Virus record (IMG/VR): IMGVR_UViG_3300043540_000012
Span: 1 to 31,572 of that record
Reading direction: 5' to 3' (one strand)
DNA: 31,572 nt
DNA from: a virus
In this document: positions 6,394-29,519 of the stretch, one piece after another
Layout of the letters: every line of letters starts with the position of its first letter
How positions within the stretch are numbered: position 1 is the first letter of the stretch
Position numbers and translations under genes: made by a program
Notes under the pieces: model-generated
Database searches by the model: none
What the model was told of the DNA's origin: nothing
The model's input: the letters and a program-made list of their open reading frames with translations, nothing else

Positions 6394-7839
6394 ATGAAAA
6401 CATTTAAAGCATTTAGACAACAACTGATAGAGCATGTTGATGACGATAAGTATGTTTCATTCTCTGGGGACATTCTTATCTTGGGTTATGGAAGTGTGGG
6501 CCAGGCAATTCTGCCTCTCGTATTGCGTCATATAGATGTCAATCCTAAACGCATAACCGTTCTTGAAAAAGATAATCATAAAGAAATATTCGATTCACGA
6601 CATAAAGATTCTGGAATAACTTATGTACAAAAAGAAGTCACACAACAGAATTATGCAGATGTACTATCAAAGTACGTATCAAGTGGTGGTCTAATTATCA
6701 ATGTTAGCCTGAACATTGATGCAAAATCTATTCTTGAGTGGTGTTTTAAGAATGATGTACATCAGATAGACACATCATTGGAGAGATGGCCGCATCAACA
6801 AGATGAAACTATACCAGATTTAGCAGAACGTACCTTGTACTATACTCATCAAAAAATCAGAGAAATGGCTGCAAAGTACAATGGTGCTGCAACATGTGTA
6901 GTGACTCATGGTGCAAACCCAGGCTATGTAACTCATTTGACGAAACGTGCATTGTTACATCTCGCAAAATATCGTGGCGAGAAAATTAAAACTCCAACAA
7001 CAAGAGATGAATGGGCGAAACTCATGCAATATCTTGGTGTCAAGGTCGTTCATATTGCAGAACGTGATACTCAAGCTGTAGATAAACCAAAAGACCTAAA
7101 TGAATTTTGCAATACATGGAGCTGCGAAGGATTTTGGGCAGAAGGTCGAGCACCAGCAGAAATGGGTTGGGGTACGCATGAAGATGATGAGCCTGAGAAT
7201 GGTCAAACCCAAGGTAATGCTGCATATCTACAACAACCGGGTGTTACGGTATTGATGAAGTCTTGGGTACCTAAAGGTGGTCAATATAATGGTTTCTGCA
7301 TTCAGCATTCGGAAGCCATTACAATTAGCGAATATTTCACAACCAAAGATGGTAAATTCAGACCATCTGTCTACTATGTATATCAACCCACAGATTCAGC
7401 AATTGCATCAGTACATGAAATGCGTGGTCGTGAACTTGACCTGCAAGAAAAACAAAGAATTCTAAAAGATGAAATTGTTAAAGGTATTGATGAACTGGGT
7501 GTGCTCTTAATTGGTGACACATTTGTATGGTGGCATGGTTCGCAGATGAGCATTGATGAGGCACGAGCATTGATACCCGGTGAAAATGCAACCAGCGTAC
7601 AAGTTGCAGGATCATTGCTTGGTGCAATTGTTTGGTTAATAAAGAATCCAAATGAAGGCTATGTAGAACCAGAAGCAATACCATTTGAAGAGGTGTTGGC
7701 AATCGGTGATAAGTATTGGGAACCATTAGCTAGTGTAGGTTCTAACTGGACACCAAATCAAGATAAGAATAGTCTATTTTATCGTCCATATGATGCTAAA
7801 AATCCATGCAGTTTTTCTAACTTCCGTGTGTGGACATAA
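6394..7839 (+). CDS. Homospermidine synthase homologue with capsid-targeting-like leader
   Basis: 481 residues, close to bacterial homospermidine synthases, which make homospermidine from putrescine with NAD+. Visible marks are a Rossmann dinucleotide loop LILGYGSVGQAILPLVLRH (GYGSVG at 31-36), INVSLNIDAKSILEWC, IDTSLERW (about 125-132) and the signature THGANPGYVTHLTKRALLHL (about 171-190), all in family order. The first 25 residues are extra to the enzyme: MKTFKAFRQQLIE resembles the capsid-targeting leaders of T4 internal proteins, with a possible protease site after LIE. The gene sits between gp13 and gp14 and overlaps gp14 by one base. It may change polyamine pools, for example to neutralise DNA charge. 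Activity and packaging are inferred. Confidence 0.8.
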   Translation: MKTFKAFRQQLIEHVDDDKYVSFSGDILILGYGSVGQAILPLVLRHIDVNPKRITVLEKDNHKEIFDSRHKDSGITYVQKEVTQQNYADVLSKYVSSGGLIINVSLNIDAKSILEWCFKNDVHQIDTSLERWPHQQDETIPDLAERTLYYTHQKIREMAAKYNGAATCVVTHGANPGYVTHLTKRALLHLAKYRGEKIKTPTTRDEWAKLMQYLGVKVVHIAERDTQAVDKPKDLNEFCNTWSCEGFWAEGRAPAEMGWGTHEDDEPENGQTQGNAAYLQQPGVTVLMKSWVPKGGQYNGFCIQHSEAITISEYFTTKDGKFRPSVYYVYQPTDSAIASVHEMRGRELDLQEKQRILKDEIVKGIDELGVLLIGDTFVWWHGSQMSIDEARALIPGENATSVQVAGSLLGAIVWLIKNPNEGYVEPEAIPFEEVLAIGDKYWEPLASVGSNWTPNQDKNSLFYRPYDAKNPCSFSNFRVWT

Positions 7840-8582
7840 TGACTGCCATCATAAACAAATATTTTGACAGAAGCCCTGGCAATGAACAGAGCCTAGTTAA
7901 CGCTTTAATCAAAGAGAGCATTCAAGTTCAAGGTAGACAATATTGGTATCTTCCACGCAACTCACAAGTTCGTGACATAATTTTAGGTGAAGATGTTTTG
8001 AGTAGTTTCTCGTTGGCAATCCCATTAGAAATGTATATGGTTGATGCACAGGGATTTCAAGGTCAGCGTGAAATGTTTACCAAGTTTGGTTTGCAGATTA
8101 ACAATTCATATCGACTAGTTGTATCAGTTGATCGTTGGGTCAATGAAGTGCAATCTCAATTTGATGGTTCAATCACTAATGGAGAAGCTTCTTTCACAAA
8201 ATCAAACTACCTTCGTCCTGGTGAAGGAGATTTGATATACGATCCGCTTACACGCTTTTTAATGGTTATCAAGTTTGTTGACAATGACCAAGAATTTTAC
8301 ACGTTGGGCAAAAACTATGTGTATTACTTGTCATGCGAAGCATTCATGTATCAGAATGAGATGATTAACACTCAAGTACCTGAAATTGACTCATTTAATG
8401 AATTAAGTAAAGATATATTGATCTTCCAATTATTGACAGAAGCATTGGAGCCAATTGTTCAGGAAAATGGTGACTTCATTCTTCAAGAACTTGAACAACA
8501 ACCAACAAGAGATATTGAAGTTGACTACAGTACGCCATCTTCTTCAATAAATACAACAATTAAGAATCCATTTAGTTTATAA
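7839..8582 (+). CDS. 14: Neck protein gp14
   Basis: 247 residues from the ATG at 7839, which overlaps the previous stop (TAATG). A GTG three codons earlier is possible but less likely, since homologues start near this ATG. The N-terminus, NEQSLVNALIKESIQVQGRQ then YWYLPRNSQVRDIILGED, fits gp14 (typically SLI-ES-IQ-YG..YYLPR). gp14 forms the neck ring with gp13 and the tail attachment point with gp15. The C-terminal part is acidic and helical (LIFQLLTEALEPIVQENGDF, LQELEQQPTRDIEVDYS). It overlaps gp15 by one base. Confidence 0.85.
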   Translation: MTAIINKYFDRSPGNEQSLVNALIKESIQVQGRQYWYLPRNSQVRDIILGEDVLSSFSLAIPLEMYMVDAQGFQGQREMFTKFGLQINNSYRLVVSVDRWVNEVQSQFDGSITNGEASFTKSNYLRPGEGDLIYDPLTRFLMVIKFVDNDQEFYTLGKNYVYYLSCEAFMYQNEMINTQVPEIDSFNELSKDILIFQLLTEALEPIVQENGDFILQELEQQPTRDIEVDYSTPSSSINTTIKNPFSL

Positions 8583-9331
8583 TGAGTTTATTTAAAAGAA
8601 ATTATTATTACCATCAAACAACCAAGAGTTTTATCACAGCATTTGGTTCTATCTTCGATGGTATATCAATTGAGAAGCACAATAGTGACGGCACAACTGC
8701 ACAGGATTATGTCGTTCCGATTGATTATTCACCAAAGAATAAATGGTTGCTCATGCTAAATGAGAGGCCGGATTACACAACAAATCAGGTTCAAATTACC
8801 TTACCTCGTATGTCATTTGAAATTATCCAAATGACACCTGCATTACAAAGAAAACATGGATTCAACGGAACATTTAGCATTGGTGCATTGAATGCTGGTG
8901 GGAGAACTAAAGTATATAACCCTGTACCATATGATCTCACAGTTAATTTGTATGCACTCACAAAAGATAACAACGATATGTTCCAAATCATCGAACAAAT
9001 CGTTCCTTATTTCCAACCATCTTTGACAATAAATTTGAACATATTGCCTGAGATGAATATATACAAAGACATTCCTTTAACTTTGATGGGTGTTGATACA
9101 CAAGATTCATTTACAGGCTCTCCTGATGAACAACGCACAATTATGAGTACGTTTACATTCATCGCACAACTAGAATACTTCGGACCAATTAATAGTCAAG
9201 GTAGCATCATTAAAGATGTCAAAGTTAATATCACTGGAGATCAACAAGAAAAATTGGATGTTGCAGTTAATCCATCAACAGCAAATCCAACAGATGCATA
9301 TACTGTAACTACACAATGGACAAGGAGTTAG
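8582..9331 (+). CDS. 15: Tail sheath stabiliser/completion protein gp15
   Basis: 249 residues. The start MSLFKRNYYYHQTTKSFITA and the next segments FGSIFDGISIEK, VVPIDYSPKNKWLLML and QITLPRMSFEII follow the order of T4 gp15 (YFY...F..LMGDLF.NI.I, VPI.Y..K..F..KL, .ETILPRI). gp15 is the hexameric cap on the tail end that stabilises sheath and tube and binds the neck. A C-terminal extension of about 30 residues is rich in Ser, Thr and Asn. An AAGGAG site at its 3' end serves the next gene. Confidence 0.85.
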   Translation: MSLFKRNYYYHQTTKSFITAFGSIFDGISIEKHNSDGTTAQDYVVPIDYSPKNKWLLMLNERPDYTTNQVQITLPRMSFEIIQMTPALQRKHGFNGTFSIGALNAGGRTKVYNPVPYDLTVNLYALTKDNNDMFQIIEQIVPYFQPSLTINLNILPEMNIYKDIPLTLMGVDTQDSFTGSPDEQRTIMSTFTFIAQLEYFGPINSQGSIIKDVKVNITGDQQEKLDVAVNPSTANPTDAYTVTTQWTRS

Positions 9332-9334
9332 TAA

Positions 9335-10366
9335 GTGAGTAAAGTTCTTTTTATTCTAAAACGTCGTGAAGATTTTAATACAGTAATACATAACCACATA
9401 GGTCTTAGCACAGGTTTATACAACTCAGCAAAGTTTGTAAACGATATGTTACCAAACTCGGAATTAGTTGTGGTTGTTGATAACAACGATATTGACAGAG
9501 AGGTGACACGTGTAAAACCAACTCATGTAATAATTGAAGCATTGTGGGTTGTTCCACAGAAATTCAATGAACTTCAGAAACATCATCCAGATGTAAAATG
9601 GATTGTCCGATTGCATAGTGAAATGCCATTTATGGCCGGTGAAGGAATTGCAATGGATTGGATAGCAGAGTATGCACGCTATCATAATGTGCTAATTGCT
9701 TGCAATGCACCGAGAATGATGAAAGAAGTTAAAGTGTATCTTGATGCAATGGGAATAGATGCCAATAGAAAGGTACTATATTTACCAAACTTCTACCCAC
9801 AGGAATACAAGACAAAACCATTCAACAAGAACAAAGAGCATATTGATATTTGTTGTTTTGGAGCAGTTAGACCATTGAAGAATCACTTGGTACAAGCAAT
9901 TGCAGCACTCGACTTTGCAAAGAAAAATGGCAAGAAATTACGTTTTCATGTGAATGCGGGTCGAATTGAGATGAAAGGTGAACCGCTAGTCAGCAATCTT
10001 AAATCCATGTTTGCTCAATTGTATAATCAAGGACATGAACTCATTAATCATACATGGGTGCCACGTGAGCAGTTTCTGGAATTATGTGCAGAAATGGATA
10101 TTGGTTTGCAGGTAAGTTTCTCTGAAACATTTAATATAGTTGGTGCAGATTTGATAAGTCAAGGCGTGCCAATTGTGGGTAGTAAAGAAATACCATGGAT
10201 GAATTATCTATGGTATGCAGAACCAACATCTGGTGAAGATATATGTATGAAGTTGCAAAGCGTATATTCGATGCCGGACGAAAATGTCAGAAGTAATCAA
10301 GAGTATCTGGCAAATTATACAAACGAAACCAAGAAAATCTGGTTGGATTATTTTAAGGAGAATTAA
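9335..10366 (+). CDS. Glycosyltransferase-like protein (GT-B fold)
   Basis: 343 residues, GTG start with AAGGAG seven bases upstream. The layout fits a GT-B glycosyltransferase. The N-terminal half has alternating strands (KVLFILKRRED, HVIIEALWVVP, VKWIVRLHSEMPFM). After a linker the second half begins IDICCFGAVRPLKNHLVQAI, a typical C-domain opening, and ends in FSETFNIVGADLISQGVPIV, a nucleotide-sugar binding-like stretch with Glu. A gene of this type is often found between gp15 and gp16 in T4-like cyanophages. Its acceptor is unknown; virion protein or host surface sugars are possible. Confidence 0.7.
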   Translation: MSKVLFILKRREDFNTVIHNHIGLSTGLYNSAKFVNDMLPNSELVVVVDNNDIDREVTRVKPTHVIIEALWVVPQKFNELQKHHPDVKWIVRLHSEMPFMAGEGIAMDWIAEYARYHNVLIACNAPRMMKEVKVYLDAMGIDANRKVLYLPNFYPQEYKTKPFNKNKEHIDICCFGAVRPLKNHLVQAIAALDFAKKNGKKLRFHVNAGRIEMKGEPLVSNLKSMFAQLYNQGHELINHTWVPREQFLELCAEMDIGLQVSFSETFNIVGADLISQGVPIVGSKEIPWMNYLWYAEPTSGEDICMKLQSVYSMPDENVRSNQEYLANYTNETKKIWLDYFKEN

Positions 10367-10567
10367 ATGGAAAGATATAGATTAACGCATCAAATTTGGG
10401 ACGATGGTCGATTGAAGATGAACTTCTACTTTTTTGAAAGCTTTGAGGCAGTAAGACAATTCATCTATACATTAACAGAAGGCATTGTAAAAGTTTATAA
10501 CTCTGCAGAGGAGTTAGTGCACGAACATCATGTGAAATCATCACCTTCTGTTGAAACATACGCATAA
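10367..10567 (+). CDS. Small hypothetical protein, 66 aa
   Basis: It directly follows the glycosyltransferase stop, with AAGGAG at 10355-10360. The protein starts MERYRLTHQIWDDGRLKMNF and contains FYFFESFEAVRQFIYTL and VKVYNSAEELVHE, predicting a small alpha/beta fold. There are no cysteines, membrane segments or known motifs. Its tight linkage to the glycosyltransferase suggests co-expression; function unknown. Confidence 0.6.
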   Translation: MERYRLTHQIWDDGRLKMNFYFFESFEAVRQFIYTLTEGIVKVYNSAEELVHEHHVKSSPSVETYA

Positions 10568-10594
10568 ATCATAATACCCATGCGCAATTAACAG

Positions 10595-11068
10595 ATGACA
10601 GATAAATTTAATGATATTTTTGAAATTGATAGAGAATCAGTGCCAGTTATTGAGGTAACTGGCACTGATGGTAAATCTACTGTTATCCCGCCTGAAGCGC
10701 CCGGAGTTGAAGAAGATATTGACTTTCAATTTGTTCGCGCAAATCATTATCAATTAGCTGCACAAGCACAAGAAGCAATGATGATTGCAATGCGAGTTGC
10801 AAGAGAAAGTGAACAGCCTCGTGCAATTGAAACTTTATCAACACTTCTGAAAACTGCATCTGAAGTGAATAGACAATTGCTATTATTGAGTAAAGATAAA
10901 GCAGAAACAAAAACAGCGAAAACAAATAAAAACCAACAACAAACTAACATAGGTACACAGAATGTAGTTGTGGCGAGCAGTTCAGAGTTAAATAAGTTGC
11001 TAAGAGGTGATACTCAAAATAACAACACTCACACAAATCTTTACTCAGAATCAAATCCGAAACAATGA
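10595..11068 (+). CDS. 16: Small terminase subunit gp16
   Basis: 157 residues. The central part (DFQFVRANHYQLAAQAQEAM, AIETLSTLLKTASEVNRQLL) forms the long helical segments of gp16-type small terminases, which assemble a ring, recognise or hold viral DNA and stimulate the gp17 ATPase. The C-terminal 50 residues are Asn, Gln and Lys-rich and probably flexible. It overlaps the large terminase gene by four bases (ATGA). No good ribosome site is seen ahead of the start. A perfect inverted repeat lies inside its 5' region and is listed separately. Confidence 0.75.
   Translation: MTDKFNDIFEIDRESVPVIEVTGTDGKSTVIPPEAPGVEEDIDFQFVRANHYQLAAQAQEAMMIAMRVARESEQPRAIETLSTLLKTASEVNRQLLLLSKDKAETKTAKTNKNQQQTNIGTQNVVVASSSELNKLLRGDTQNNNTHTNLYSESNPKQ
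10636..10669. repeat. 14-bp perfect inverted repeat in the gp16 gene
   Basis: ATCAGTGCCAGTTA is followed by a 6-base spacer and then its exact reverse complement TAACTGGCACTGAT. It lies about 40 bases into the small terminase gene. There is no T-run after it, so it is not a normal terminator. In some phages DNA sites bound by the small terminase lie in or near its own gene; that role here is inference. It could also act as an mRNA hairpin. Confidence 0.8.
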
Positions 11069-11532
11069 ACGTTAATATCCCTGACGATGTAATACAATAT
11101 CTTTCACAATTCACATTCCGTGGCAATTCAAAGTTGCGTCCAGAAGGAACTCGTATTGAATACACAGAAGAAATGATTGATGAACTTAAGAAGTGTATGA
11201 ATGATCCAATATACTTCATTAAGAATTACATTTATGTTGTTCATCCAGATCGTGGAGTTGTTAAGTTTGACTTGTTTCCATATCAGGAACGCATGATTAA
11301 TGCTTATCACAATAATAGGCAAGTCATCTTTTTGACAGCTAGGCAACAAGGGAAATGTTTGTCAATAAATACTAATGTAAGGATTAGACAGAAATCATCT
11401 GGTCAAATTTTTGAAATTACATTAGGAGATTTTTATGCGTGGCAAAAAACGTTTGAAGGAATTGACTTGTCAGTGTTGCAAGAAGAGCTTCATAGGCTCA
11501 ACAGCAAAGAAGAAACAAAAGTAATTAATTGA
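11065..11532 (+). CDS. 17: Large terminase gp17, N-terminal piece fused to split-intein N fragment
   Basis: 155 residues. Residues 1-97 are the start of a T4 gp17-type packaging ATPase: DPIYFIKNYIYVVHPDRGVV, FDLFPYQERMINAYHNNRQV (adenine-binding Q region), then FLTARQQGK, the first part of Walker A. At Cys98 the sequence changes to CLSINTNVRIRQKSSGQIFE, a typical intein block A, and the gene stops after 58 intein residues. The missing T of the GKT motif is the first extein residue of the gene at 12903. Protein splicing in trans would give a terminase of about 554 residues. This is a functional split rather than a simple pseudogene, because both intein halves are intact at their junction residues. 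Confidence 0.85.
   Translation: MNVNIPDDVIQYLSQFTFRGNSKLRPEGTRIEYTEEMIDELKKCMNDPIYFIKNYIYVVHPDRGVVKFDLFPYQERMINAYHNNRQVIFLTARQQGKCLSINTNVRIRQKSSGQIFEITLGDFYAWQKTFEGIDLSVLQEELHRLNSKEETKVIN
11356..11529 (+). other. Split intein, N-terminal fragment (58 aa)
   Basis: It begins with the nucleophile Cys98 directly after ARQQGK and contains the block A pattern (CLSINTNVRIRQ...GQIFEITLGDFY). It lacks block B, which is on the C fragment. The break thus lies close to the N-terminus, as in the atypically split terminase inteins such as AceL-TerL. No endonuclease domain is present. Confidence 0.8.
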
Positions 11533-11543
11533 ATGGGGTAATA

Positions 11544-12725
11544 ATGTTAAAATTCGCACAATTCTTATATGAATCTACAGAAGATGATGGAGAAATGCAT
11601 CCATATTTACAATTCTTGACTTCACCACATGGCATTCCAGATGACCCTTCATTACATGAATCTACCATAATCCCTATACATCAAATGCAACCTGCAGGCA
11701 AGAATCCATTGCGTGCAGCTAAACAAGCATTCGACCACATTGGAAATGGAAATAATCCTCACACAGGTCAACCAATGCCATCTTATGGTTCTAAAGAATA
11801 CAAGAAGATGGTTGCTGATGCACATGCTAGATTGAGAGAAAAGCATGGTGTTGATCCAAAGAATTTGTTAGCTGGTAATAAAAAACTGCGAGATTCTACT
11901 GGAGAACATATCCTTGATAAGAATGGGAAGCAAGTTTTCTCACAAGGTTTAAGTCTTTCTCCAGCAGACGACAGACATGGAATTAACACTTGCCCTAAGG
12001 CATCTGCTGAATGTAAGAATGTATGTTTGGCTCATACAGCAGGTGCTATGGCACGAGCAAAAGCAATACAAGATGCGAAGAAGCGCAAAACAGACGCATT
12101 GTTCAAATCTCCTGAAGATATGGCAATTGCTCTACATCACCACATAAACAAGGAAGAACGAGCAGCTGATAAGGACGGCACTTACTCTTATTCTGTTCGT
12201 ATGAATACAACATCCGATATTCCTCAAACAGTGTATCATGGTTTGCGTAAAGCCCATCCTGATACACAATTCTACGATTATACAAAAGAACACAAACAAG
12301 TATTGCATAATCTACAGCATAAAGACGAGCCCGGTCATAAAAATTTGCACTTGACATTTAGTTCAACTGGTGTTCACCATGAAGAATCGAATTGGAATCA
12401 TTGCCGTGAAGTGTTGAAAGCTGGTGGCAATGTTGCTATGGTATCACGTAGCAAGAATGCCATTAAAGGTAAATCACAGAATTCCGCAAACGAATTGCCA
12501 CACACAGTCCACGATACCGATACAGGTGAAAAATGGCCTACCTTGGATGGTGATGGACGCTCGCATGATTTGGATGGACATGGTGATGCACGTTTCTTGG
12601 ATAAACCAGGACATGTTGTAATGTTGCATTTGAAGGGAGTGAATCCAAAGCAGGCAGGAAATTTTGCAGTCCCTCATGGACCTGATAGAATAGCACATGT
12701 TTCTGGTAAGAAGACTAAAGATTAA
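11544..12725 (+). CDS. Gp88-like protein lodged between the terminase halves
   Basis: 393 residues from the ATG at 11544, with GGGGT upstream. The centre has a cysteine cluster C150-P-K-A-S-A-E-C157-K-N-V-C161 followed by LAHTAGAMARAKAIQDAKKR, the pattern of the phage 'gene product 88' family as I know it (CPxAS..C...C.A..G). Later parts include VHHEESNWNHCREVLKAGGN and DRIAHVSGKKTKD. The family's biochemical role is unknown to me; the cysteines may bind metal. The first 11 residues, MLKFAQFLYES, resemble the leaders on other accessory proteins here, with LYE as a possible protease site. It occupies the place where fractured intein genes often hold a homing endonuclease, but I see no HNH, GIY-YIG or LAGLIDADG motif. 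Confidence 0.55.
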   Translation: MLKFAQFLYESTEDDGEMHPYLQFLTSPHGIPDDPSLHESTIIPIHQMQPAGKNPLRAAKQAFDHIGNGNNPHTGQPMPSYGSKEYKKMVADAHARLREKHGVDPKNLLAGNKKLRDSTGEHILDKNGKQVFSQGLSLSPADDRHGINTCPKASAECKNVCLAHTAGAMARAKAIQDAKKRKTDALFKSPEDMAIALHHHINKEERAADKDGTYSYSVRMNTTSDIPQTVYHGLRKAHPDTQFYDYTKEHKQVLHNLQHKDEPGHKNLHLTFSSTGVHHEESNWNHCREVLKAGGNVAMVSRSKNAIKGKSQNSANELPHTVHDTDTGEKWPTLDGDGRSHDLDGHGDARFLDKPGHVVMLHLKGVNPKQAGNFAVPHGPDRIAHVSGKKTKD

Positions 12726-12743
12726 AAGGACAATGGAACATTT

Positions 12744-12854
12744 ATGAGCAGCCAAATTCAAGATGCACCAATCACCACTACGGTGATGTTTATTGCACTG
12801 TGCATTATTGCAGGAAAAGCAATTCAACGTGAACAACACGATAGAAAGAATTGA
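12744..12854 (+). CDS. Small membrane protein, 36 aa
   Basis: A short open frame, MSSQIQDAPITTTVMFIALC then IIAGKAIQREQHDRKN. About residues 11-27 form one hydrophobic segment with a basic tail, suggesting a membrane peptide. AAAGGA lies about 13 bases upstream. It lies between the Gp88-like gene and the intein C fragment. No family is recognised; function unknown. Confidence 0.45.
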   Translation: MSSQIQDAPITTTVMFIALCIIAGKAIQREQHDRKN

Positions 12855-12902
12855 AAATTTACCTCAATGCTGTTTTGCAATACATCATTTGTTTGATAGC
12901 TA

Positions 12903-13265
12903 ATGCATACAATTTCTGACTCAGTAGAACGCAAATTTGTTGATTCTATAAAAGTCTCTGATTTTGAAATTGAATCAGAAAATGGATGGGTTGATATAAC
13001 TCATATTAATGTTACGACAGAATATGATGTGTATCAACTCATCACTACAAATAGTGTAATTGAATGCGCAGATAATCATATTGTTTTTGATAAAAATCAC
13101 AATGAGATATTCATCAAAGACTTGAAAATTGGTGATAAAATTATAGGTCAATATGGAGATGAATATGTGATATCTGTTATCAAAACCGACAGAAAAGAGC
13201 ATATGATTGACATCACAGTCAAAGGAAATCATACATTTTATGCTCATGGTTTACTACATCACAAT
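12903..13265 (+). other. Split intein, C-terminal fragment (121 aa)
   Basis: It carries block B (IECADNHIVFDKN), the segment IKDLKIGDKIIGQ, block F (MIDITVKGNHTFYAHG) and block G ending LLHHN, with the penultimate His and final Asn needed for splicing. The +1 extein residue is Thr. There is no endonuclease insert. Confidence 0.85.
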
Positions 13266-14639
13266 ACATCTGTATCAGCTGCATACCTTATTTGGGTTAT
13301 GCTATTCAATGATAGCAAGACAATTGCAATTCTGGCAAATAAGCAAGCAACAGCGGATGAAATTCTTTCTCGAATGCGTTTGGCATATGAAGAACTGCCT
13401 CGTTGGATGCAACAAGGAGTTAAGAACTGGAATAAACGCTCTATAGAACTTGAAAATGGATCAAAGGCATTTTCTTCTGCATCAAGTTCATCCTCAATTC
13501 GAGGTAGGTCAATTAGTTATCTCTACCTTGATGAATTTGCATTTGTGCCAAATACACAAGCAGAAGAGTTCTTTACAGCAGTATATCCAACTATTACAGC
13601 AGGTAAAGATACCAAAATCTTCATGACTTCAACTCCAAATGGATATAACCATTTCCATAAGTTTTGGGTTGAAGCAGAAAAAACACAACAAGGAGAAAAA
13701 GGTGGAAACGGCTTTATCCCTTTGCGTGTACATTGGTATGAAACTCCTGGTCGAGATCAAAAATGGTATGACGAACAAAAATCAATCCTAGGTGAATTAA
13801 AAACTGCACAAGAAATTGATGCCGAATTTCTAGGTTCAGGTAAGACCCTTCTAACAGGTGCGACACTTGCAAAATTGACATTTGATACACCGTTGAAAAC
13901 ATTTAATGGTCAAGAAAAAGGATTGTTGATTTATGCATATCCGGAGCAAGATCATAAATATACTATGACAGTTGATGTAAGTCGTGGACGTCACTTGGAT
14001 TATTCAGCTTTCACTGTGTTTGATATTACTACATATCCGCACAGGATAGTTGCAACATATCGAAATAATGAAATTCCACCATTGCTATATGCATCTATCG
14101 TCCACAAAATAGCAAGAAACTATAATGAAGCATATGTACTTATTGAGATCAATGATGTGGGAGCACAAATTGCTGACACATTGTGGACAGACTTAGAATA
14201 TGAAGCAATGTTTTGGACTAAATCGGGTGACTTATTGGGTAGAACAGGTGCAGATCCATACCCTGGTATCAGAACAACCAAGAAAACTAAACGAATTGGT
14301 TGTGCAAACTTAAAAGACATGATTGACAACAATCAGCTGATAATTAATGACTATCAGATGATTCAAGAATTGAGCACATTTATTCAGAAAGATAGTGGCT
14401 CATATGAAGCTGATGAGGGGTTTCATGACGATACTGTAACTACTCTATGGTTACATGCATGGATGGCATCCCAGCCCTGGTTTAAAGATTTAACAGATTC
14501 GGATTTACGTTTAAGATTGCATGAAGATCACATTAAATCTATGGAGGATGAATTGTGTATGCCTGTTATCTTAGATGGAAATGAAAATTATCAAGACATA
14601 GACGAGCATGGCATAAGACATGTGCCATCATTATTTTGA
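12903..14639 (+). CDS. 17: Large terminase gp17, split-intein C fragment fused to ATPase/nuclease
   Basis: 578 residues. Residues 1-121 are the intein C fragment, ending LLHHN; the terminase resumes at Thr122 (TSVSAAYLIWVMLF), which completes Walker A. Walker B is ISYLYLDEFAFVP (Asp210-Glu211), followed by the coupling motif FMTSTPNG. The nuclease domain shows MTVDVSRGRHLDYSAFTVFD, VLIEINDVGAQIADTLW and FHDDTVTTLWLHAWM, placing the acidic metal-binding residues in T4 gp17 order. The joined protein would package DNA through the portal. ATG 12903 is the first start after an in-frame stop. No Shine-Dalgarno sequence is visible, so output of this half may be limited. Confidence 0.9.
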   Translation: MHTISDSVERKFVDSIKVSDFEIESENGWVDITHINVTTEYDVYQLITTNSVIECADNHIVFDKNHNEIFIKDLKIGDKIIGQYGDEYVISVIKTDRKEHMIDITVKGNHTFYAHGLLHHNTSVSAAYLIWVMLFNDSKTIAILANKQATADEILSRMRLAYEELPRWMQQGVKNWNKRSIELENGSKAFSSASSSSSIRGRSISYLYLDEFAFVPNTQAEEFFTAVYPTITAGKDTKIFMTSTPNGYNHFHKFWVEAEKTQQGEKGGNGFIPLRVHWYETPGRDQKWYDEQKSILGELKTAQEIDAEFLGSGKTLLTGATLAKLTFDTPLKTFNGQEKGLLIYAYPEQDHKYTMTVDVSRGRHLDYSAFTVFDITTYPHRIVATYRNNEIPPLLYASIVHKIARNYNEAYVLIEINDVGAQIADTLWTDLEYEAMFWTKSGDLLGRTGADPYPGIRTTKKTKRIGCANLKDMIDNNQLIINDYQMIQELSTFIQKDSGSYEADEGFHDDTVTTLWLHAWMASQPWFKDLTDSDLRLRLHEDHIKSMEDELCMPVILDGNENYQDIDEHGIRHVPSLF

Positions 14640-14649
14640 AGGATTCAAA

Positions 14650-14889
14650 ATGCCATCTTCATCACTAAAACAACATCGCTTGATGCAGGCAGTTGCAAAC
14701 AATCCTAAATTTGCAAAGAAAGTGGGAATAAAGCAAAGTGTAGGTAAAGAATTTGAAGCTGCCGATAAAGCAGAAGGCAAGTTCCAAAAGAAAGTTTCTG
14801 AAACTGTAGTAACTCATGAGCAAGAACCAAAATCTGATTCGGTGCGAACTTTCAAGGATTGGTTTTATGAAAATAAAGACGCTTATTAG
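14650..14889 (+). CDS. Small conserved phage protein (MPSSSxxQxRLM type)
   Basis: 79 residues from the ATG at 14650, preferred because GAAGGA lies just upstream; an earlier ATG at 14620 would overlap gp17. The sequence MPSSSLKQHRLMQAVANNPK then FAKKVGIKQSVGKEFEAADK is a pattern I recognise from small phage proteins of unknown function. The C-terminus, VRTFKDWFYENKDAY, resembles the leader-like 'FK' motif seen at protein starts elsewhere here. The next gene begins inside its last codons (23-base overlap). Confidence 0.6.
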   Translation: MPSSSLKQHRLMQAVANNPKFAKKVGIKQSVGKEFEAADKAEGKFQKKVSETVVTHEQEPKSDSVRTFKDWFYENKDAY

Positions 14890-15874
14890 TAATGATACAC
14901 GCGGTAAAATTCATGAATTGCTTACTGCTGCACATCTAAATCGTCTTATTCACGGAGAATTGGCGCATGCAGATCATTTTCGAGATGAGAAAGGGCGTTC
15001 TCCGCATGAAGCACATGATGCACTAGTTAAAGATATTTCCGAATCTGACTATCAAACTGCACATTCTCATGCAGTTCAGGCGGCAGAATCAATTTATAAT
15101 CATATTAATGATCACCATCCTGAATTATTGAATCCAGTTTATCATATTAAAGTGTCATGGACTTCATTAAAATCTGACCATGAAAAATTGACAAGTAAGA
15201 AAGATGAAGCTCATGCAGGTGGGGCTGATATTATGCTTTCATCTCATGACAAACATACTGGCATGTTGCATCATGCTGTTGGATATTCATTAAAGATTGC
15301 TGATAATAGAATTACATTGGGACAAACAGGATCAACAACAACAGAAAATTTACTAGGTATGAAACCTGGTACACTCACTAAATATGACGAAAATTACAGG
15401 AAAGAAGTTGAAGATATTTTAAAGAAATATGGTCATAATGCAAAGTTTATGTCAGAAGCAGAAAAACATGCAGCATTTAAAGCTAGTCGAGATAATATAA
15501 CCGAATCGAAAATGGCTGATGAAATTCGCAACTCATCATATAAACATGTTGCAAATAAAGTTAAAAAAATTAAAAAACATTTGGAATCGTTGCCAGAAAC
15601 AGAACAGAAGAATCTTTTAATAAACTTCATTGCACCAAAACATGCGTTTCCGACATATCAAGTTGTAACTAAACCTTCTAAAGGAACAACAACAATTAAA
15701 AATGAAAATGAGCGTGTTTCTTTTGTAATTAAGAAAAGCGGTCCATTGAAATTTGAACAATCATCAGGTATGGGTAATAAGTTATACATTAGAAACCATG
15801 AAGGCAAAACTTTAAATGTATTTGAAATAAGAAGTAAACGACCAGCAGGACATTCAGAAGTAATTGTGAAGTAA
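14867..15874 (+). CDS. Hypothetical protein, possible nuclease-like domain
   Basis: 335 residues from the ATG at 14867. A farther upstream ATG (14816) would overlap the preceding gene more. The N-terminal region (RGKIHELLTAAHLNRLIHGE) is helical and His-rich. The middle has HAGGADIMLSSHDK and, about 20 residues later, HAVGYSLKIADN; an Asp then S-x-K layout faintly recalls the PD-(D/E)xK nuclease core, with Ser in place of the usual acidic residue. The C-terminal 130 residues include a Lys-rich coiled part (VKKIKKHLESLPETEQKN) and a beta-rich end (FEQSSGMGNKLYIRNHEGK). No family is certain. It lies among accessory genes after gp17. Confidence 0.5.
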   Translation: MKIKTLISNDTRGKIHELLTAAHLNRLIHGELAHADHFRDEKGRSPHEAHDALVKDISESDYQTAHSHAVQAAESIYNHINDHHPELLNPVYHIKVSWTSLKSDHEKLTSKKDEAHAGGADIMLSSHDKHTGMLHHAVGYSLKIADNRITLGQTGSTTTENLLGMKPGTLTKYDENYRKEVEDILKKYGHNAKFMSEAEKHAAFKASRDNITESKMADEIRNSSYKHVANKVKKIKKHLESLPETEQKNLLINFIAPKHAFPTYQVVTKPSKGTTTIKNENERVSFVIKKSGPLKFEQSSGMGNKLYIRNHEGKTLNVFEIRSKRPAGHSEVIVK

Positions 15875-15879
15875 AAGGA

Positions 15880-15887
15880 CATAAATA
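15880..15887 (+). promoter_or_regulatory. Candidate T4-type late promoter (CATAAATA)
   Basis: CATAAATA differs from the T4 late box TATAAATA at one base and lies only 4 bases before the ATG at 15892. The spacing to that gene is too short for a leader, so if active it would serve downstream genes. Low confidence. Confidence 0.2.
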
Positions 15888-15891
15888 AAAA

Positions 15892-16266
15892 ATGGCAAAA
15901 TTTATATCCAAACTAGATGTAGAGTTGATTAATCAACAAGATGCGCAGGGGCGTGGAACTTGGAAAATCAAGTCTACTTTGTTGTACCAATCCGACATTA
16001 TAAAAGGTCAGATTTCTGTACCAGTTGATTTTGTTACTGACTTTGCATCTGTTCCGAGAATTCCTATTTTCTTTGACTTGTTTGGTGATATTGCATCTGA
16101 AGCCGCGGTTGTTCATGATTACCTATATAAAACAGGTATATATTCACGAAAAATATCAGATAAAATTTTGAAAGAGGCTGCAATTGCAACCGGATGCCCA
16201 AACTGGCAAGCACTTGGATTGTATATAGGTGTTCGTCTGTTTGGTTGGATTTTTTATAAAGGTTAG
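15892..16266 (+). CDS. DUF1353 family protein
   Basis: 124 residues. The family marks are clear: ISVPVDFVTDFASVPRIPIF (TDFASVPR at 49-56) and EAAVVHDYLYKTG (72-82), followed by a second helix ILKEAAIATGCPNWQALGLY and an aromatic end FGWIFYKG. DUF1353 proteins are frequent in tailed phages; their role is not established, though His and Asp in the conserved motifs suggest a small enzyme. It lies just ahead of the repeat-protein gene. Confidence 0.8.
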   Translation: MAKFISKLDVELINQQDAQGRGTWKIKSTLLYQSDIIKGQISVPVDFVTDFASVPRIPIFFDLFGDIASEAAVVHDYLYKTGIYSRKISDKILKEAAIATGCPNWQALGLYIGVRLFGWIFYKG

Positions 16267-16276
16267 TAGAGATTAA

Positions 16277-17887
16277 ATGATTACAGTTAAACAATTATTA
16301 GAAGTGTTGAATGATAGAGAAAAGGAGCAAGTTTCTCATTGGGAAAAGGCTTCACCTGAAGTTCGTTCTCATACAGATCATTTTTTTGGAAAAGACAATG
16401 ATGACGTTTATACTCCGTTGAAAGATACCGTTGACAAATCGGAAGTTCATAAGAAAATTGAAAGTTATTTGGATAAAGATATCCATCCGGATGATTATAA
16501 AGAAGGTAAAACGACTGACAAATATGGACGTCCAGTTAGAATTGGGCGGCTTTTAACTAAACATGATTCATTAAAACACGAATTTGAAAATGACTCAACA
16601 CGGCAAGGTAAAAACGCAAAAGGACTAACCGTAAGAACTACTCGTTCTCCTGAAGGTGTAGCAGGACAGACGTCGCACAATCAATCTTGGGAAAATCAAA
16701 GCTGTAAAAATTTTAATACAGGATCAAATAGAAAATATTTGAAAGGCGAAGTGAAACATGGAACAGTTGTGTCGTATCTTCATGATGAAAATGGAAAAGA
16801 AATAGCTAGAGCAACACATCAACCTCATATTAATGACCAAGGACATGTTGCATATGCTGTAGACGCTCATTATGGAATAAAGCATGCTGGTTTCAAGAAA
16901 CATTGTGAAGAAGTTAGCAAGCAGCTATCAGGTGAGCATAAAGGTGGTAGTCTGATGTATAAAAAACATCCTGGTGTCTATGATGATTCTGGTGTCAAAG
17001 AAATTTTACATCCAAATGCAACTTCAAAAGACATTTCTAAAGCATTGGACGATAAAGATCCTGTGGTTCGTCTATCAGCAATTAAACACCCAAATGCAAC
17101 CCTAGAACATATCTCTAAAGCATTGGATGATGAAAATAGAGGTGTTCGCTATGCAGCAATTAAACATCCAAATGCAACCCTAGAACATATCTCTAAAGCA
17201 TTGGATGATGAAAATAGAGGTGTTCGCCATGCAGCAATTGAACATCCAAATGCAACTGCTGAAAATATTTCTAAGGCATTGAGAGATGAAGATTATCGGG
17301 TTCGTTTATCAGCAATTGAACATCCAAAAGCAACCCCAGAACATATTTCTAAAGCATTAGACGATAAAGATTTTCGGGTTCGTTTATCAGCAATCCAACA
17401 TCCAAAAGCAACTGCTGCACATATATCTAGAGCATTAGACGATAAAGCCCCTGCTGTTCGCTATGCAGCAATTAAACATCCAAATGCAACAAGTGAAAAT
17501 ATTTCTAAGGCATTGGAAGATAAAGAGCCTGCTGTTCGTCTAGCTGCAATTAGACATCCAAGAGCAACGGGTGAACATATATCTAAAGCATTAGGAGATG
17601 AAGATTTTTGGGTTCGTAAGACAGCAATTGAACATCCAAAAGCAACAGGTGAACATTTATCTAAAGCATTAGGAGATGAAGATAGAAATGTTCGTTATGC
17701 AGCAATTCAACATCCAAGAGCAACGGGTGAACATATATCTAAAGCATTAGGAGATGAAGATTTTTGGGTTCGTAAGACAGCAATTGAACATCCAAATGCA
17801 ACTGCTGAAAATATTTCTAAGGCATTGAGAGATGAAGATACTCATGTTCATTATGCAGCAAAAAATAGATTAAAGGTACGAGATTAA
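16277..17887 (+). CDS. LRV/HEAT-like repeat protein 1 with leader-like N-terminus
   Basis: 536 residues. The first ten residues, MITVKQLLEV, match the leader pattern of other accessory proteins, with LLE as a possible protease site. Residues about 11-244 are an unrecognised polar domain (RPVRIGRLLTKHDSLKHEFE, SWENQSCKNFNTGSNRKYLK). From residue 245 come eleven 26-residue units of the form HPNAT-x-x-x-ISKALDDKD-x-x-VR-x-x-AI-x, the pattern of leucine-rich variant/HEAT-like helical repeats, which form curved binding scaffolds. The positions before and after VR and after HPxAT vary most. It ends AAKNRLKVRD. The binding partner is unknown. A related gene lies at 20442. Confidence 0.7.
   Translation: MITVKQLLEVLNDREKEQVSHWEKASPEVRSHTDHFFGKDNDDVYTPLKDTVDKSEVHKKIESYLDKDIHPDDYKEGKTTDKYGRPVRIGRLLTKHDSLKHEFENDSTRQGKNAKGLTVRTTRSPEGVAGQTSHNQSWENQSCKNFNTGSNRKYLKGEVKHGTVVSYLHDENGKEIARATHQPHINDQGHVAYAVDAHYGIKHAGFKKHCEEVSKQLSGEHKGGSLMYKKHPGVYDDSGVKEILHPNATSKDISKALDDKDPVVRLSAIKHPNATLEHISKALDDENRGVRYAAIKHPNATLEHISKALDDENRGVRHAAIEHPNATAENISKALRDEDYRVRLSAIEHPKATPEHISKALDDKDFRVRLSAIQHPKATAAHISRALDDKAPAVRYAAIKHPNATSENISKALEDKEPAVRLAAIRHPRATGEHISKALGDEDFWVRKTAIEHPKATGEHLSKALGDEDRNVRYAAIQHPRATGEHISKALGDEDFWVRKTAIEHPNATAENISKALRDEDTHVHYAAKNRLKVRD
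17009..17866 (+). repeat. Eleven 78-bp coding tandem repeats
   Basis: Each unit begins CATCCAAA/G (codons His-Pro) and is exactly 78 bases long. The units starting at 17555 and 17711 are identical over about 86 bases, and the neighbouring units at 17087 and 17165 are nearly so. This indicates recent internal duplication or gene conversion. The array stays in frame throughout. Confidence 0.9.
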
Positions 17888-19230
17888 TGTCCATTAAAGT
17901 ATCACAACTACTAGAGGCAATAGAAAAAAGAGGTGTATTGGTATACGGTCGTATGAATCCACCAACCATGGGACACGCTAAGTTGATTGATACTGCATTG
18001 GCGGAGCCTGGCAATAAACGAATCTATGTTTCACATATACAAGATAATAAGAAGAATCCATTAAGTGCAGATGAGAAATTGGAAATTCTGCATAAAATGT
18101 ACCCAAATCACAAACATTTCTTCCGAAAAGCAAGCAAAGAAGAGCCTACAATTTTCCATGCCGCTGCAAAAATGCATAAAGAAGGTATCAAGCATCTTAC
18201 AGTCATTGCAGGTGAAGATCGTGTAAAAGAATTTCAAGACAAACTTAATGCATATAATGGAAAATTTGATAAAGATGGAAATGGTTACCATTTCAAGAGC
18301 ATAACTGTCAAATCAGCAGGTACAAGAGATCCTGATGCAGAAGGTATGACAGGTATATCAGCGACTAAGATGCGTCAAGCTGCACTTAAGGGCGATAAAA
18401 AAACATTTCGTGCAGGTCTCCATCACAACATAACTGATAAAGAATCTGATAATTTGATGACCAAAATAAAAGAGCGCATGGGTATTGTATCTGAAGATGA
18501 TGAACTCCGCAATGATTATATCCTTGGTGATACATTCAAGATTGGTGAATTTGTAACCAACCAAATACACAGTGGTGAAATAATTTTCCGCGGCGCAAAT
18601 TACGTCACAATTGTATCTGAAGGTAAAGATCATAAATTGTGGATTGATGAAATTCAGTATGTAGATGGTGAATCAAAACGAAATCAAATTTACAAAGAAT
18701 CATTTATATTCAAAGGATACAAATCAAAGAATCTTACACGAGAACTTGCAGAGCAATTTCGCAATATTTCAAAATCGACGGATGACCAATATGCATTGTT
18801 GAGTTGTTTAAAAGCATGTGATTATATACTAGGTGTCAATGAACAAATAGTCATTAATAATTTTAGACTCGTTAAAATTCAATTGGAACGAGCTAAACGA
18901 TATGCAAACAAGTTTTCCATAAATATATCTGAACAATTACAATTAGTTGAAGAGAATTGCTTAAAGTTGGCAATACTTGAGGATTATAAGTTCTCAACAA
19001 CTGATAAAATGATGATTGCTCGGGTTATTGCTTCTGTATCTGATGTAACGCCATCCGGGAATGATCCATCAGCAATAATAAATAAAGCAATTGTTAATTT
19101 GCGAAATTCTCAACTAACCCCTCAAGGATGGGAATTAATTGGTAGAATGTTGCGTGTTGCAACAGATGCAGGAATTAAATGGAACAAAGATAATTTTGCA
19201 CTATCTATTCAAAAACAAATGGGATTATAA
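17887..19230 (+). CDS. Nucleotidyltransferase-type protein with C-terminal extension and leader
   Basis: 447 residues. MSIKVSQLLEAIEKR is a leader-like start with LLE. Then GVLVYGRMNPPTMGHAKLID (TMGH at 27-30) and GISATKMRQAA (156-166) give the HxGH-type and ISxTxxR motifs of the nucleotidyltransferase superfamily that includes NMN adenylyltransferases and cytidylyltransferases. The first His of HxGH is replaced by Thr. Residues from about 205 are a separate domain: a beta part (FVTNQIHSGEIIFRGANYV) and helices (LKLAILEDYKFSTTDKMMIA). The substrate cannot be told; NAD metabolism is one possibility. It overlaps both neighbours by one base. Confidence 0.65.
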   Translation: MSIKVSQLLEAIEKRGVLVYGRMNPPTMGHAKLIDTALAEPGNKRIYVSHIQDNKKNPLSADEKLEILHKMYPNHKHFFRKASKEEPTIFHAAAKMHKEGIKHLTVIAGEDRVKEFQDKLNAYNGKFDKDGNGYHFKSITVKSAGTRDPDAEGMTGISATKMRQAALKGDKKTFRAGLHHNITDKESDNLMTKIKERMGIVSEDDELRNDYILGDTFKIGEFVTNQIHSGEIIFRGANYVTIVSEGKDHKLWIDEIQYVDGESKRNQIYKESFIFKGYKSKNLTRELAEQFRNISKSTDDQYALLSCLKACDYILGVNEQIVINNFRLVKIQLERAKRYANKFSINISEQLQLVEENCLKLAILEDYKFSTTDKMMIARVIASVSDVTPSGNDPSAIINKAIVNLRNSQLTPQGWELIGRMLRVATDAGIKWNKDNFALSIQKQMGL

Positions 19231-20405
19231 TGAATACATCAAAACAACAAACAGAATACAACATTAATGAAAAACATGAAGGTTTCGACAAAGTAGCCAA
19301 GGAAACCGGTTCTGCTAAATTGGCAGCATGGATTGGTCAACAAAAATATGGAAAGAAGAAGATGGAAAAAGCTGCACACGCAAATGATGGTGAAGGTCGT
19401 CCATTGAAAGATTCTGAAAAGTTGAAGGAAGATACAATTGACGGAACAACATGGAGTTGGAAAGATGAACTTGAAAGAGTACACAGAGAAATTGATCCAA
19501 AAAAATCTTCACTATCAGCCAGAGCAGAAAAAGCAATTGCATTGAGAAAACCGAAAAAACATACAGGTTATGTAGCAAATACACCACACGTATCAGGTCG
19601 CAAGCATGTTGGTACATATGGTACACGTTATAAAGCAGATGACGAGGAAGAACACAATGTAAGTAAACCGGAAAGGACATTCGATGCTGATGCTCTATCA
19701 TCTGCATTAAATGTGACTACAAATATGAATCCACATATAACTACAACAAAAATCAAAACAGGTATGTCACGTGCGCAACAAAGAAATCTTCATCTACAAA
19801 AATATGCAAGAACAGTAGGTAAAAAACTTTCTGAATTATCTCCAGCTGAAAGACGAGCAGCAATGACAACCTTCCAAGCTGAAAGCATTGTTTATCAAGC
19901 ATCGAAAGACGATATTGAATATCAAATCGTAAAAGAAGGTTTAGTGTATCGCTTTGAGATTTTAGATGAGGATAACAATGTTATTGCAGAAGGGATTGCT
20001 CCAACAGAAAATGGTGCAACTGTTCGTGCGACTCGTTTGATTGAATCAATATGTGATAAAGTTAAGAAGCAAAATAAACAAAAAATAAATGCAATTCAAA
20101 GAGAAAAAAATAATCTAGAATTGTCTGAAAGCAAGTTGTCCGAACTTCATGCCAATATACATGCTCTTTTTGACAAACCAAATATTTACGGTGTCAAAAT
20201 TAATGGTTCTTCAACCCAAACACATTATAACCATAACGGTATCAGAAAGTATATTGTACATAATGTTTCATATCACAAAAAAGATCAACCCTACAAACAA
20301 GGATATACGACATATGTACATCATGAAGTGGGATCAACAAACGTGAAAAGGGGATTACCAAAACGTCTTGGTGGTGATCGAATTGTGTCAACTAAGAATG
20401 AATAA
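19230..20405 (+). CDS. Hypothetical protein, three-part
   Basis: 391 residues. Residues 17-45 (GFDKVAKETGSAKLAAWIGQ then KYGKKKMEKAA) are a motif I have seen in T4-like phage proteins of unknown role. A long Lys/Arg/Thr-rich linker follows. Then comes a possible small beta domain (DDIEYQIVKEGLVYRFEILD, NVIAEGIAPTENGATVRA) and a helical segment. The C-terminal 80 residues are His/Tyr-rich and end RLGGDRIVSTKNE. There are no membrane segments. It lacks the leader seen on its neighbours, although it sits within the same gene group. Function unknown. Confidence 0.5.
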   Translation: MNTSKQQTEYNINEKHEGFDKVAKETGSAKLAAWIGQQKYGKKKMEKAAHANDGEGRPLKDSEKLKEDTIDGTTWSWKDELERVHREIDPKKSSLSARAEKAIALRKPKKHTGYVANTPHVSGRKHVGTYGTRYKADDEEEHNVSKPERTFDADALSSALNVTTNMNPHITTTKIKTGMSRAQQRNLHLQKYARTVGKKLSELSPAERRAAMTTFQAESIVYQASKDDIEYQIVKEGLVYRFEILDEDNNVIAEGIAPTENGATVRATRLIESICDKVKKQNKQKINAIQREKNNLELSESKLSELHANIHALFDKPNIYGVKINGSSTQTHYNHNGIRKYIVHNVSYHKKDQPYKQGYTTYVHHEVGSTNVKRGLPKRLGGDRIVSTKNE

Positions 20406-20411
20406 TAAATA
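20404..20411 (+). promoter_or_regulatory. Candidate T4-type late promoter (AATAAATA)
   Basis: AATAAATA overlaps the stop of the preceding gene and lies 30 bases before the ATG at 20442, with AAAGGA in between. The position suits a late promoter for the second repeat protein and the structural genes that follow. Confidence 0.4.
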
Positions 20412-20441
20412 AACAAACAATAGTACAATAAAGGAAATTTA

Positions 20442-21125
20442 ATGTATACATTTAAACAATTACTAGAAGATTCTCGTTCTGAAAAAGCTTCACAATCTGA
20501 CCATATTTCTAGAGCATTAGATGATAAAGATTTTTATGTTCGTTATGCAGCAATTGAACATCCAAATGCAACTGGTGAAAATATTTCTAAAGCATTAGAC
20601 GATAAAGATTTTCGGATTCGTAAGGCAGCAATTAGACATCCAAAAGCAACTGATGAACATATTTTTAAAGCATTGAGAGATGAAAATCCTGCTGTTCGTG
20701 AAGTTGCAATTAGTCATCCAAATGCAACTGGTGAAAATATTTCTAAGGCATTGGAAGATAAAGAGCCTGCTGTTCGTTATGCAGCAATTGAACATCCAAA
20801 TGCAACTGGTGAAAATATTTCTAAAGCATTAGACGATAAAGATTATCTGGTTCGTTATGCGGCAATCCAACATCCAAAAGCAACTGCTGCACATATATCT
20901 AGAGCACTAGACGATAAAGACCCTGATGTTCGCTGGGCAGCAATTAAACATCCAAATGCAACTGCCGAACATATATCTAGAGCATTAGACGATAAAGACC
21001 CTGATGTTCGCTGGGCAGCAATTAAACATCCAAATGCAACTGCCGAACATATTTTTAAAGCATTGAGAGATGAAGTCCCTGATGTTCGTGAAGCAGCAAA
21101 AAATAGATTAAAGGAGTTAAAATGA
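20442..21125 (+). CDS. LRV/HEAT-like repeat protein 2 with leader-like N-terminus
   Basis: 227 residues. MYTFKQLLEDSRSE is the leader type, with LLE as possible protease site. After one degenerate unit come seven 26-residue units (HPNATGENISKALDDKDFRI style), ending AAKNRLKELK as in repeat protein 1 (AAKNRLKVRD). It lacks the large N-terminal domain of repeat protein 1, so it is essentially leader plus repeats. Two adjacent units are identical in DNA. Long stretches are shared with the gene at 16277, for example 47 identical bases at 17493-17539 and 20731-20777. Binding partner unknown. It overlaps the next gene by four bases (ATGA). Confidence 0.7.
   Translation: MYTFKQLLEDSRSEKASQSDHISRALDDKDFYVRYAAIEHPNATGENISKALDDKDFRIRKAAIRHPKATDEHIFKALRDENPAVREVAISHPNATGENISKALEDKEPAVRYAAIEHPNATGENISKALDDKDYLVRYAAIQHPKATAAHISRALDDKDPDVRWAAIKHPNATAEHISRALDDKDPDVRWAAIKHPNATAEHIFKALRDEVPDVREAAKNRLKELK
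20559..21104 (+). repeat. Seven 78-bp coding tandem repeats, related to those at 17009
   Basis: Same 78-base unit and same phase as the first array. The 57 bases at 20863-20919 match 17391-17447 with one difference. The two arrays are direct repeats about 3.5 kb apart. Confidence 0.9.
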
Positions 21126-23410: not shown

Positions 23411-23784
23411 CCTTGATTATTGATAACTCGAACTTTGTTCAATATGCAATAAAAGCATATGACAATCCACAATGCAAAACAGTTGAGCAGTTTAATGATG
23501 ATGTGTATAAATTTTCACTCATCAAAAAACTGCTTAAAACTGATAAAAGTGATAGTGAGTTTGTTCAAATGACATTGAATAATATTGTATCACTTTATAA
23601 TGTATTTGGATATGATGAATGCACAAAAATGTTATTCTTTAAGGTTAGACGTGAACATTGGTTCAAATTGAAAACCTACTTATTATTTTTGAATCATATG
23701 CCTGAAAGCATACCAGAATTACAACTAATAAACAGCGATATAAAAATATGTCCAAAGATAGCAAAAGAATTAAGATTGATTTAA
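23365..23784 (+). CDS. Conserved T4-like phage protein (DUF7207-like)
   Basis: 139 residues from the ATG at 23365, with GGTGGA upstream. A TTG at 23413, just after the preceding stop, is a possible alternative and would begin at the conserved part. The core IDNSNFVQYAIKAYDNPQCK, FNDDVYKFSLIKKLL, NNIVSLYNVFGYDECTKMLF and WFKLKTYLLFLNHMPESI is a pattern I know from a conserved family in cyanophages and other T4-like phages, usually near gp17/gp18. It is probably a helical protein involved in late functions. No biochemical role is known to me. Confidence 0.6.
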   Translation: MGVCWILPSKLIHSITLIIDNSNFVQYAIKAYDNPQCKTVEQFNDDVYKFSLIKKLLKTDKSDSEFVQMTLNNIVSLYNVFGYDECTKMLFFKVRREHWFKLKTYLLFLNHMPESIPELQLINSDIKICPKIAKELRLI

Positions 23785-29511: not shown

Positions 29512-29519
29512 GGAATCAG

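Follow-up and report, generated by a model that had tools for sequence, protein, structure and literature searches.

Five proteins encoded on a T4-like phage fragment (IMG/VR record IMGVR_UViG_3300043540_000012; 31,572 bases, in full referred to as the window, and assigned from its gene content) begin with similar leaders of about ten residues. With a probability of roughly 0.8, we take these leaders for capsid-targeting sequences like those of the T4 internal proteins, used here on enzymes. Several enzymes are probably enclosed in the phage head and injected with the DNA. Support for this interpretation is good at the level of the family; for this uncultured phage we infer packaging, cleavage and injection. 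The loading of a cargo set into the prohead, put forward in the original prediction from the DNA alone, finds support in the stronger leaders of T4-like homologues, in relatives detected in virions and in the enrichment of leaders in two virion proteomes.

The five leaders in the window

The leaders are encoded where they had been predicted (Table 1), each from an ATG start. The start of the Gp88-like protein is the least certain of the five, since it is an internal ATG of an open reading frame (ORF) whose earliest possible start is a TTG at 11529, and it has no Shine-Dalgarno match. In T4 IPIII the first 10 residues suffice for packaging, mutagenesis shows that targeting depends mainly on residues 4 and 7 and processing on residues 8 and 10, and an Asp at position 10 blocks processing but not targeting (PMC9026906). 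The Gp88-like leader MLKFAQFLYE agrees with MKTYQEFIAE of IPIII at all four functional positions (F4, F7, L8 and E10). The hydrophobic pair is F4/F7 in both the homospermidine synthase (HSS) homologue and the Gp88-like protein, and F4/L7, V4/L7 and V5/L8 in the remaining leaders, the last in the nucleotidyltransferase. In these short leaders the three-residue spacing is kept, and the candidate cut site starts at the second residue of the pair.

The leaders had been described as each ending in L-x-E. An L/I-x-E site is indeed present in 5/5, but in HSS it is displaced by three residues (candidate cut LIE at residues 11–13). L-x-E alone was rejected as the common feature, as many HSS homologues retain F-x-x-F without it; judged from the sequences, a hydrophobic or aromatic pair three positions apart (F-x-x-F/L) describes the shared element better, with the cut site optional. 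Likewise, the bodies behind the leaders, which had been called unrelated, are of four kinds but not all unrelated, because two of the five proteins share HEAT/LRV repeats. In repeat protein 2 the leader runs almost straight into these repeats.

Table 1 Leaders, related tags and capsid-assembly genes in the window. P, probability by the leader profile
Feature	Position	Strand	Details	P
Leader of HSS homologue	6394–6432	+	MKTFKAFRQQLIE; CDS 6394–7839; F4 and F7 at the T4 IPIII targeting positions	0.094
Leader of Gp88-like protein	11544–11573	+	MLKFAQFLYE; CDS 11544–12725; PF17338	0.0035
Leader of HEAT/LRV-repeat protein 1	16277–16303	+	MITVKQLLE; CDS 16277–17887	0.12
Leader of cytidylyltransferase-like protein (nucleotidyltransferase)	17887–17916	+	MSIKVSQLLE; CDS 17887–19230	0.24
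Leader of HEAT/LRV-repeat protein 2	20442–20468	+	MYTFKQLLE; CDS 20442–21125	0.019
Leader-like C-terminus of 79-residue ORF	14845–14871	+	RTFKDWFYE; ORF 14650–14889	
Body of sixth candidate cargo, 335 residues	14867–15874	+	own N-terminus MKIKTLISND, a degenerate leader with N replacing E	0.049
66-residue ORF, possible C-terminal tag copy	23748–23948	+	ends KLSFKDWINV	
Tail sheath	24654			
Tail tube	26721			
Portal	27278			
gp21 prohead protease	29508–30173	+	Peptidase_S77 (PF03420), 95.9 bits; C-terminus KAFAELMSKFGSR	
gp22-type capsid assembly scaffold	30235–31290	+	PF25623, 204 bits	
Major capsid protein, start only (cut by window end)	31315–31572	+		

The motif [FYVI]..[FL]?[LI].E within residues 2–15 was found in 6/40 window genes, as compared to 0.78 expected when each N-terminus was shuffled (P = 1.5e-4). 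The six comprise four of the five leaders, the gene at 22739 and the scaffold at 30235; the HSS leader misses the pattern because its cut site is displaced. Plain L-x-E occurs in 8 window N-termini against 2.05 expected (P = 2e-4, by shuffling). The narrower pattern [FV].QLLE, which was chosen post hoc and two of whose three proteins share the HEAT/LRV repeats, is found in 3/40 window N-termini and at 3 of 387,167 internal positions of the surveyed proteomes. The leader is thus commoner than chance, and T4-like homologues carry it. Scored one by one with a short profile trained on 14 leaders, all from other phages, the window leaders are nevertheless weak. The original observation is true, but the window by itself is insufficient to carry the interpretation, and since a single profile is too weak here, evidence was sought at the family level.

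Leaders on homologues

The window nucleotidyltransferase matches phage cytidyltransferase profiles (phrog_3041, E = 2e-54; phrog_395, E = 7e-53), by which it is a member of the cyanophage NMNAT/cytidylyltransferase family (T4-GC190); no PDB match was found for it. Among the N-termini of this enzyme that were read from T4-like phages, 14/15 (window counted) have a leader that ends in E. Examples are MIQIKQLFEE in G055 (58% identical to the window protein), MELLSLKDFITE in G045, MKSFLELSEE in G020, MKKFSEIIEA in Melnitz, MKKFSTFISEA in S-ShM2, MKSFTSFFTEA in P-TIM68, MKSFSQFLTET in P-SSM2, MKKFSAFLNEA in Syn19, MKKFSAFLTEA in S-RIM8 and a leader ending ILEG in S-PRM1. Three nucleotidyltransferases detected by mass spectrometry (MS) begin MKNFSSFLTEA, MKSFLQFLKEA and MRFRQFIIEA. 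Whole-protein tblastn of viral contigs with the Gp88-like protein and the nucleotidyltransferase returned no relatives.

Homologues of repeat protein 1 whose start lies within the fetched DNA begin MISFKNFIKEELND, MLTFKKFLLEYLTD, MLQFKEFLLEYLTD, MLSFKNFLKEE, MLTFRKLKTIISEE, MITLKKFLTEYLTE, MITFKHFLLEYLTD and MIRFKQFLIEYLTD, and full T4-type leaders such as MITFKHFLLE and MISFKNFIKE occur among them. The start of the window protein, MITVKQLLEVLND, equals the leader of the homologues minus one residue. Several leader-bearing paralogues stand in tandem on one contig, and the S77 protease is also encoded on contigs G048, G050 and G051, which carry such homologues. The T4-like contigs L183 and L178 hold arrays of at least three tandem HEAT/LRV-repeat proteins, each with its own leader; an arms-race cargo locus is one possible reading of these arrays.

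The protein at 6394 aligns with the cellular HSS structure 2ph5 over residues 18–479 (E = 1.3e-102; Pfam Sacchrp_dh) and is, by this measure, an HSS homologue across its whole body. The alignment with cellular HSS of known structure starts only at window residue 18–20; the leader is not found in the cellular enzymes and is consequently an addition. In an AlphaFold model residues 4–13 form a helix that is modelled with low confidence (mean pLDDT 41 for residues 1–10) and lies outside the confidently predicted fold. [FY]..[FY] is kept in 18/24 distinct viral HSS N-termini (window counted), as compared to a background of 5%, but only about one third have a plausible cut site (L/I-x-E or FIE, by eye). 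Most HSS homologues would thus stay uncut. This pattern brings in a rival, which we hold to be possible though rather unlikely, namely that cargo docks on the prohead core through leaders which mostly remain unprocessed, the targeting pair being conserved and the E incidental. The T4 IPIII variant with Asp at position 10, targeted yet uncut (PMC9026906), fits such docking, as do the C-terminal copies in the MS-detected proteins S-SCSM1_93 and S-CREM2 gp12 described below. Conversely, an E following a leucine-like residue is kept in nearly all nucleotidyltransferase and repeat-protein-1 leaders, which speaks against this rival.

Leaders in cyanophage virion proteomes

The link to virions was drawn from the 52 virion proteins listed for S-CREM2 (PMC10665884) and from those of S-SCSM1 (PMC9602691), using the profile trained on other phages; the test is independent of the window. 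At a threshold above 99% of the null, leaders were recognized in 7/26 S-CREM2 virion proteins without an assigned structural role and in 9/167 undetected proteins (Fisher P = 0.0018); the corresponding S-SCSM1 figures were 4/17 and 8/224 (P = 0.006). Pooling gave 11/43 versus 17/391 (P = 1.6e-5), and 7/41 versus 16/391 (P = 0.003) when the nucleotidyltransferases were removed from both training and test. A rank test on the full S-CREM2 protein set gave no significant result (P = 0.21), so the signal lies in the upper tail. By eye, the motif is present in 4/4 virion enzymes of S-CREM2 that are classed under regulation or DNA metabolism: the SAM hydrolase (MKDFDSFLEE), the APH-like kinase (MKRFDAFLTEE), the cytidylyltransferase (MKNFSSFLTEA) and the Cas9-like protein, where LRFASFMAEA starts at about residue 18 and stands outside the profile count.

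The leader could also be an N-terminal helix with another role, such as docking to replication or host machinery, or a signal for tail or neck assembly. Some leader genes do lie among tail and neck genes, and the helix modelled for HSS would suit such a role. However, none of the assigned structural proteins (0/26 in S-CREM2, 0/34 in S-SCSM1) passes the 99% threshold, the motif agrees with the function of the T4 capsid-targeting sequence, and leader-bearing enzymes are found in virions. A separate role of this kind is accordingly quite unlikely.

The cytidylyltransferase family, to which the window protein at 17887 belongs and whose members carry leaders where these could be read, has been detected by MS in virions of S-SM1 (PMC3037559), S-SCSM1 (PMC9602691), S-SZBM1 (PMC9146016) and S-CREM2 (PMC10665884). 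Unlike the present analysis, those four papers give no packaging signal and propose no packaging mechanism, and one allows for contamination. In a literature search that left most subscription papers outside its reach, no report of the leader on cyanophage enzymes was found, and no paper using the term capsid targeting sequence was, by title, on a cyanophage. The present analysis points out the leader on cyanophage virion enzymes.

Two further sets of short proteins stood out in these comparisons. Two similar cyanophage proteins of about 105 residues (L172 44215–44535, and S-SZBM1 122311–122628, L157) begin MKTFKQFMSESVNISGDFNGN and MKSFKSFLSESVNISGDFNGN; the S-SCSM1 member of the pair lies between two virion proteins and is itself not marked as detected. 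In T4, the top leader score, above IPII and IPIII, belongs to gene 61.1 (L170 467–631; T4 18966–19130), which encodes a 54-residue hypothetical protein beside adfA (61.2) and begins MKTFKEFIKED. From its sequence, this gene is a candidate for an undescribed internal protein.

Observations against capsid targeting

Several observations, besides the missing cut sites of most HSS homologues, weigh against capsid targeting. Individual scores of the window leaders are weak (Table 1), 0 window genes exceed the 99% profile threshold with the starts of the gene caller, and there is no leader excess in the close relatives G001 and G002; outside annotated records, gene starts were assigned by a simple caller. 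The nucleotidyltransferase of Pelagibacter phage HTVC008M, the sole exception among the 15, begins MKTLKELLRKK without an E, and that of S-PM2, left out of the count, is a domain fused behind another protein. Three jumbo-phage homologues have no leader despite an S77 protease in those phages, and a missing S77 was accordingly rejected as the cause. Many virion proteins without an assigned structure carry no leader, some non-virion proteins score well, and the authors of the S-CREM2 proteome warn of co-purification (PMC10665884). Chance, combined with common descent of a small number of short hydrophobic N-termini picked by eye, would accommodate the weak individual scores, the repeats common to two of the proteins and the lack of excess in G001 and G002, but is highly improbable in the face of the permutation result, the strong leaders on homologues and the enrichment seen in two virion proteomes with a profile trained elsewhere.

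Possible C-terminal and internal tags

The tag also seems to be present at C-terminal ends and within one gene. The sixth candidate cargo, at 14867, has a counterpart in G045 that begins MLSFNDFLVES and was recognized from the start of its body (KGKMHELLLAKHL vs RGKIHELLTAAHL). In the relatives L188–L193 the sequence TFETWLIES lies inside a single 509-residue ORF, directly before a body 66% identical to the 14867 protein. Its window counterpart, RTFKDWFYE, lies in a different frame from that body, near the end of a 79-residue ORF with matches to PHROG virion structural proteins. Either a frame change splits the gene, or the leader may have turned into a C-terminal tag. The frame change within 14620–15874, set against the single ORF of L188–L193, could reflect an assembly error, a real break or frameshifting.

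The MS-detected S-SCSM1_93 ends RTFKEFLEYIE, which favours C-terminal tags as real. S-CREM2 gp12 (L145 7704–10313), an MS-detected Cas9-like nuclease, has RFASFMAE near residue 18 and KTFRDFLN at its C-terminus. The G002 ORF at the place matching the 66-residue window ORF at 23748 ends LLSFKEWKNVVVSS. Over whole genomes the C-terminal motif excess is significant only in the window and in S-CREM2, and the C-terminal tag is consequently treated as a lead.

Capsid-assembly genes and genome context

The gp21 gene named in the original prediction is present, with its start codon at 29508 or 29520. The window major capsid protein has SINE/AVP at residue 54, in a placement resembling the T4 gp23 cut FLTE/AE, and on account of this INE/A site the window gp21 plausibly cuts L/I-x-E. 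Such sites are numerous in the scaffold. The C-termini of gp21 proteins themselves resemble the leaders: [FWY]..[FWLY][LIM] lies within the last 14 residues of 8/11 T4-like gp21 (e.g. SAFKSFLQSL and LFNDFLNSL, with T4 gp21 among those without the pattern) and of 3.4% of all proteins, the pattern having been picked after inspection of the sequences and the 11 gp21 being homologues. A review of T4 had already proposed that gp21 propeptides may act as capsid-targeting sequences (PMC9026906).

The window portal is 70–71% identical to those of two other viral contigs and <60% identical to those of all phages in the annotated collection. The gene for the gp17 terminase is in two parts (11065–14639). 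Its N part ends in an intein-like start directly after ARQQGK, its C part begins within an intein-like domain ending HHN, followed by TSVSAAYL, and the leader-bearing Gp88-like ORF sits between the two. The locus looks like a gene fractured by a split intein, the Pfam intein matches being weak.

Discussion

The arrangement resembles that of T4 IPI, IPII, IPIII and Alt (MKTYQEFIAE and gp21) in its short N-terminal leader with hydrophobic residues at 4 and 7 followed by L/I-x-E, in the different bodies behind one leader and in the presence of gp21 and a gp22-type scaffold in the same genome. In contrast to the T4 internal proteins, enzymes and HEAT-repeat proteins make up most of the window cargo. 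Three of the window leaders (F/V-x-x-L-L-E) are shorter by one residue, the cut site is missing from many HSS homologues, and C-terminal and internal tags are possible. In phage P1 an N-terminal signal of DarB is enough for a reporter to enter the capsid (PMC9024508), but there is no consensus among the Dar proteins, the phage belongs to another family, and no T4-type motif is reported. The ejection proteins of phiKZ and SPN3US also have N-terminal propeptides that are cut by a gp21-like protease after x-x-E, with the difference that the cut motif is S/A-x-E or A-x-E (PMC9026906, PMC10052503).

By capsid targeting of this type, the first ~10 residues of the cargo would dock on the prohead core, mainly via the pair F4/V4 and F7/L7, and the docked cargo would be enclosed ahead of DNA packaging. 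In leaders with a following L/I-x-E, gp21 would cut after the E and free the mature protein, which would later be ejected together with the DNA. The cargo set of the window would comprise HSS, the cytidylyltransferase/NMNAT-like enzyme, the Gp88-like protein and both HEAT/LRV-repeat proteins; the protein at 14867 probably belongs to it as well.

At even odds in our estimation, T4-like phages including marine cyanophages share a short address code of the form F/Y/V-x-x-F/W/L, which may or may not include a cut site and may be N-terminal, C-terminal or between domains. The code would dock cargo, and gp21 via its C-terminal tail, on the prohead core, and each lineage would deliver its own host-acting enzymes, such as NAD and polyamine enzymes, SAM hydrolase, kinases and a Cas9-like nuclease. 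If so, the natural set of leaders would separate targeting (two residues) from processing (L/I-x-E), and the NMNAT-like enzymes, kinases, SAM hydrolase and Cas9-like nuclease in cyanophage virions, left unexplained by the authors of those reports, would find an explanation. A cheap sequence rule would then predict which proteins of T4-like phages are carried in the head and injected before phage gene expression, and would mark many hypothetical genes as candidates for early-acting host takeover or counter-defence.

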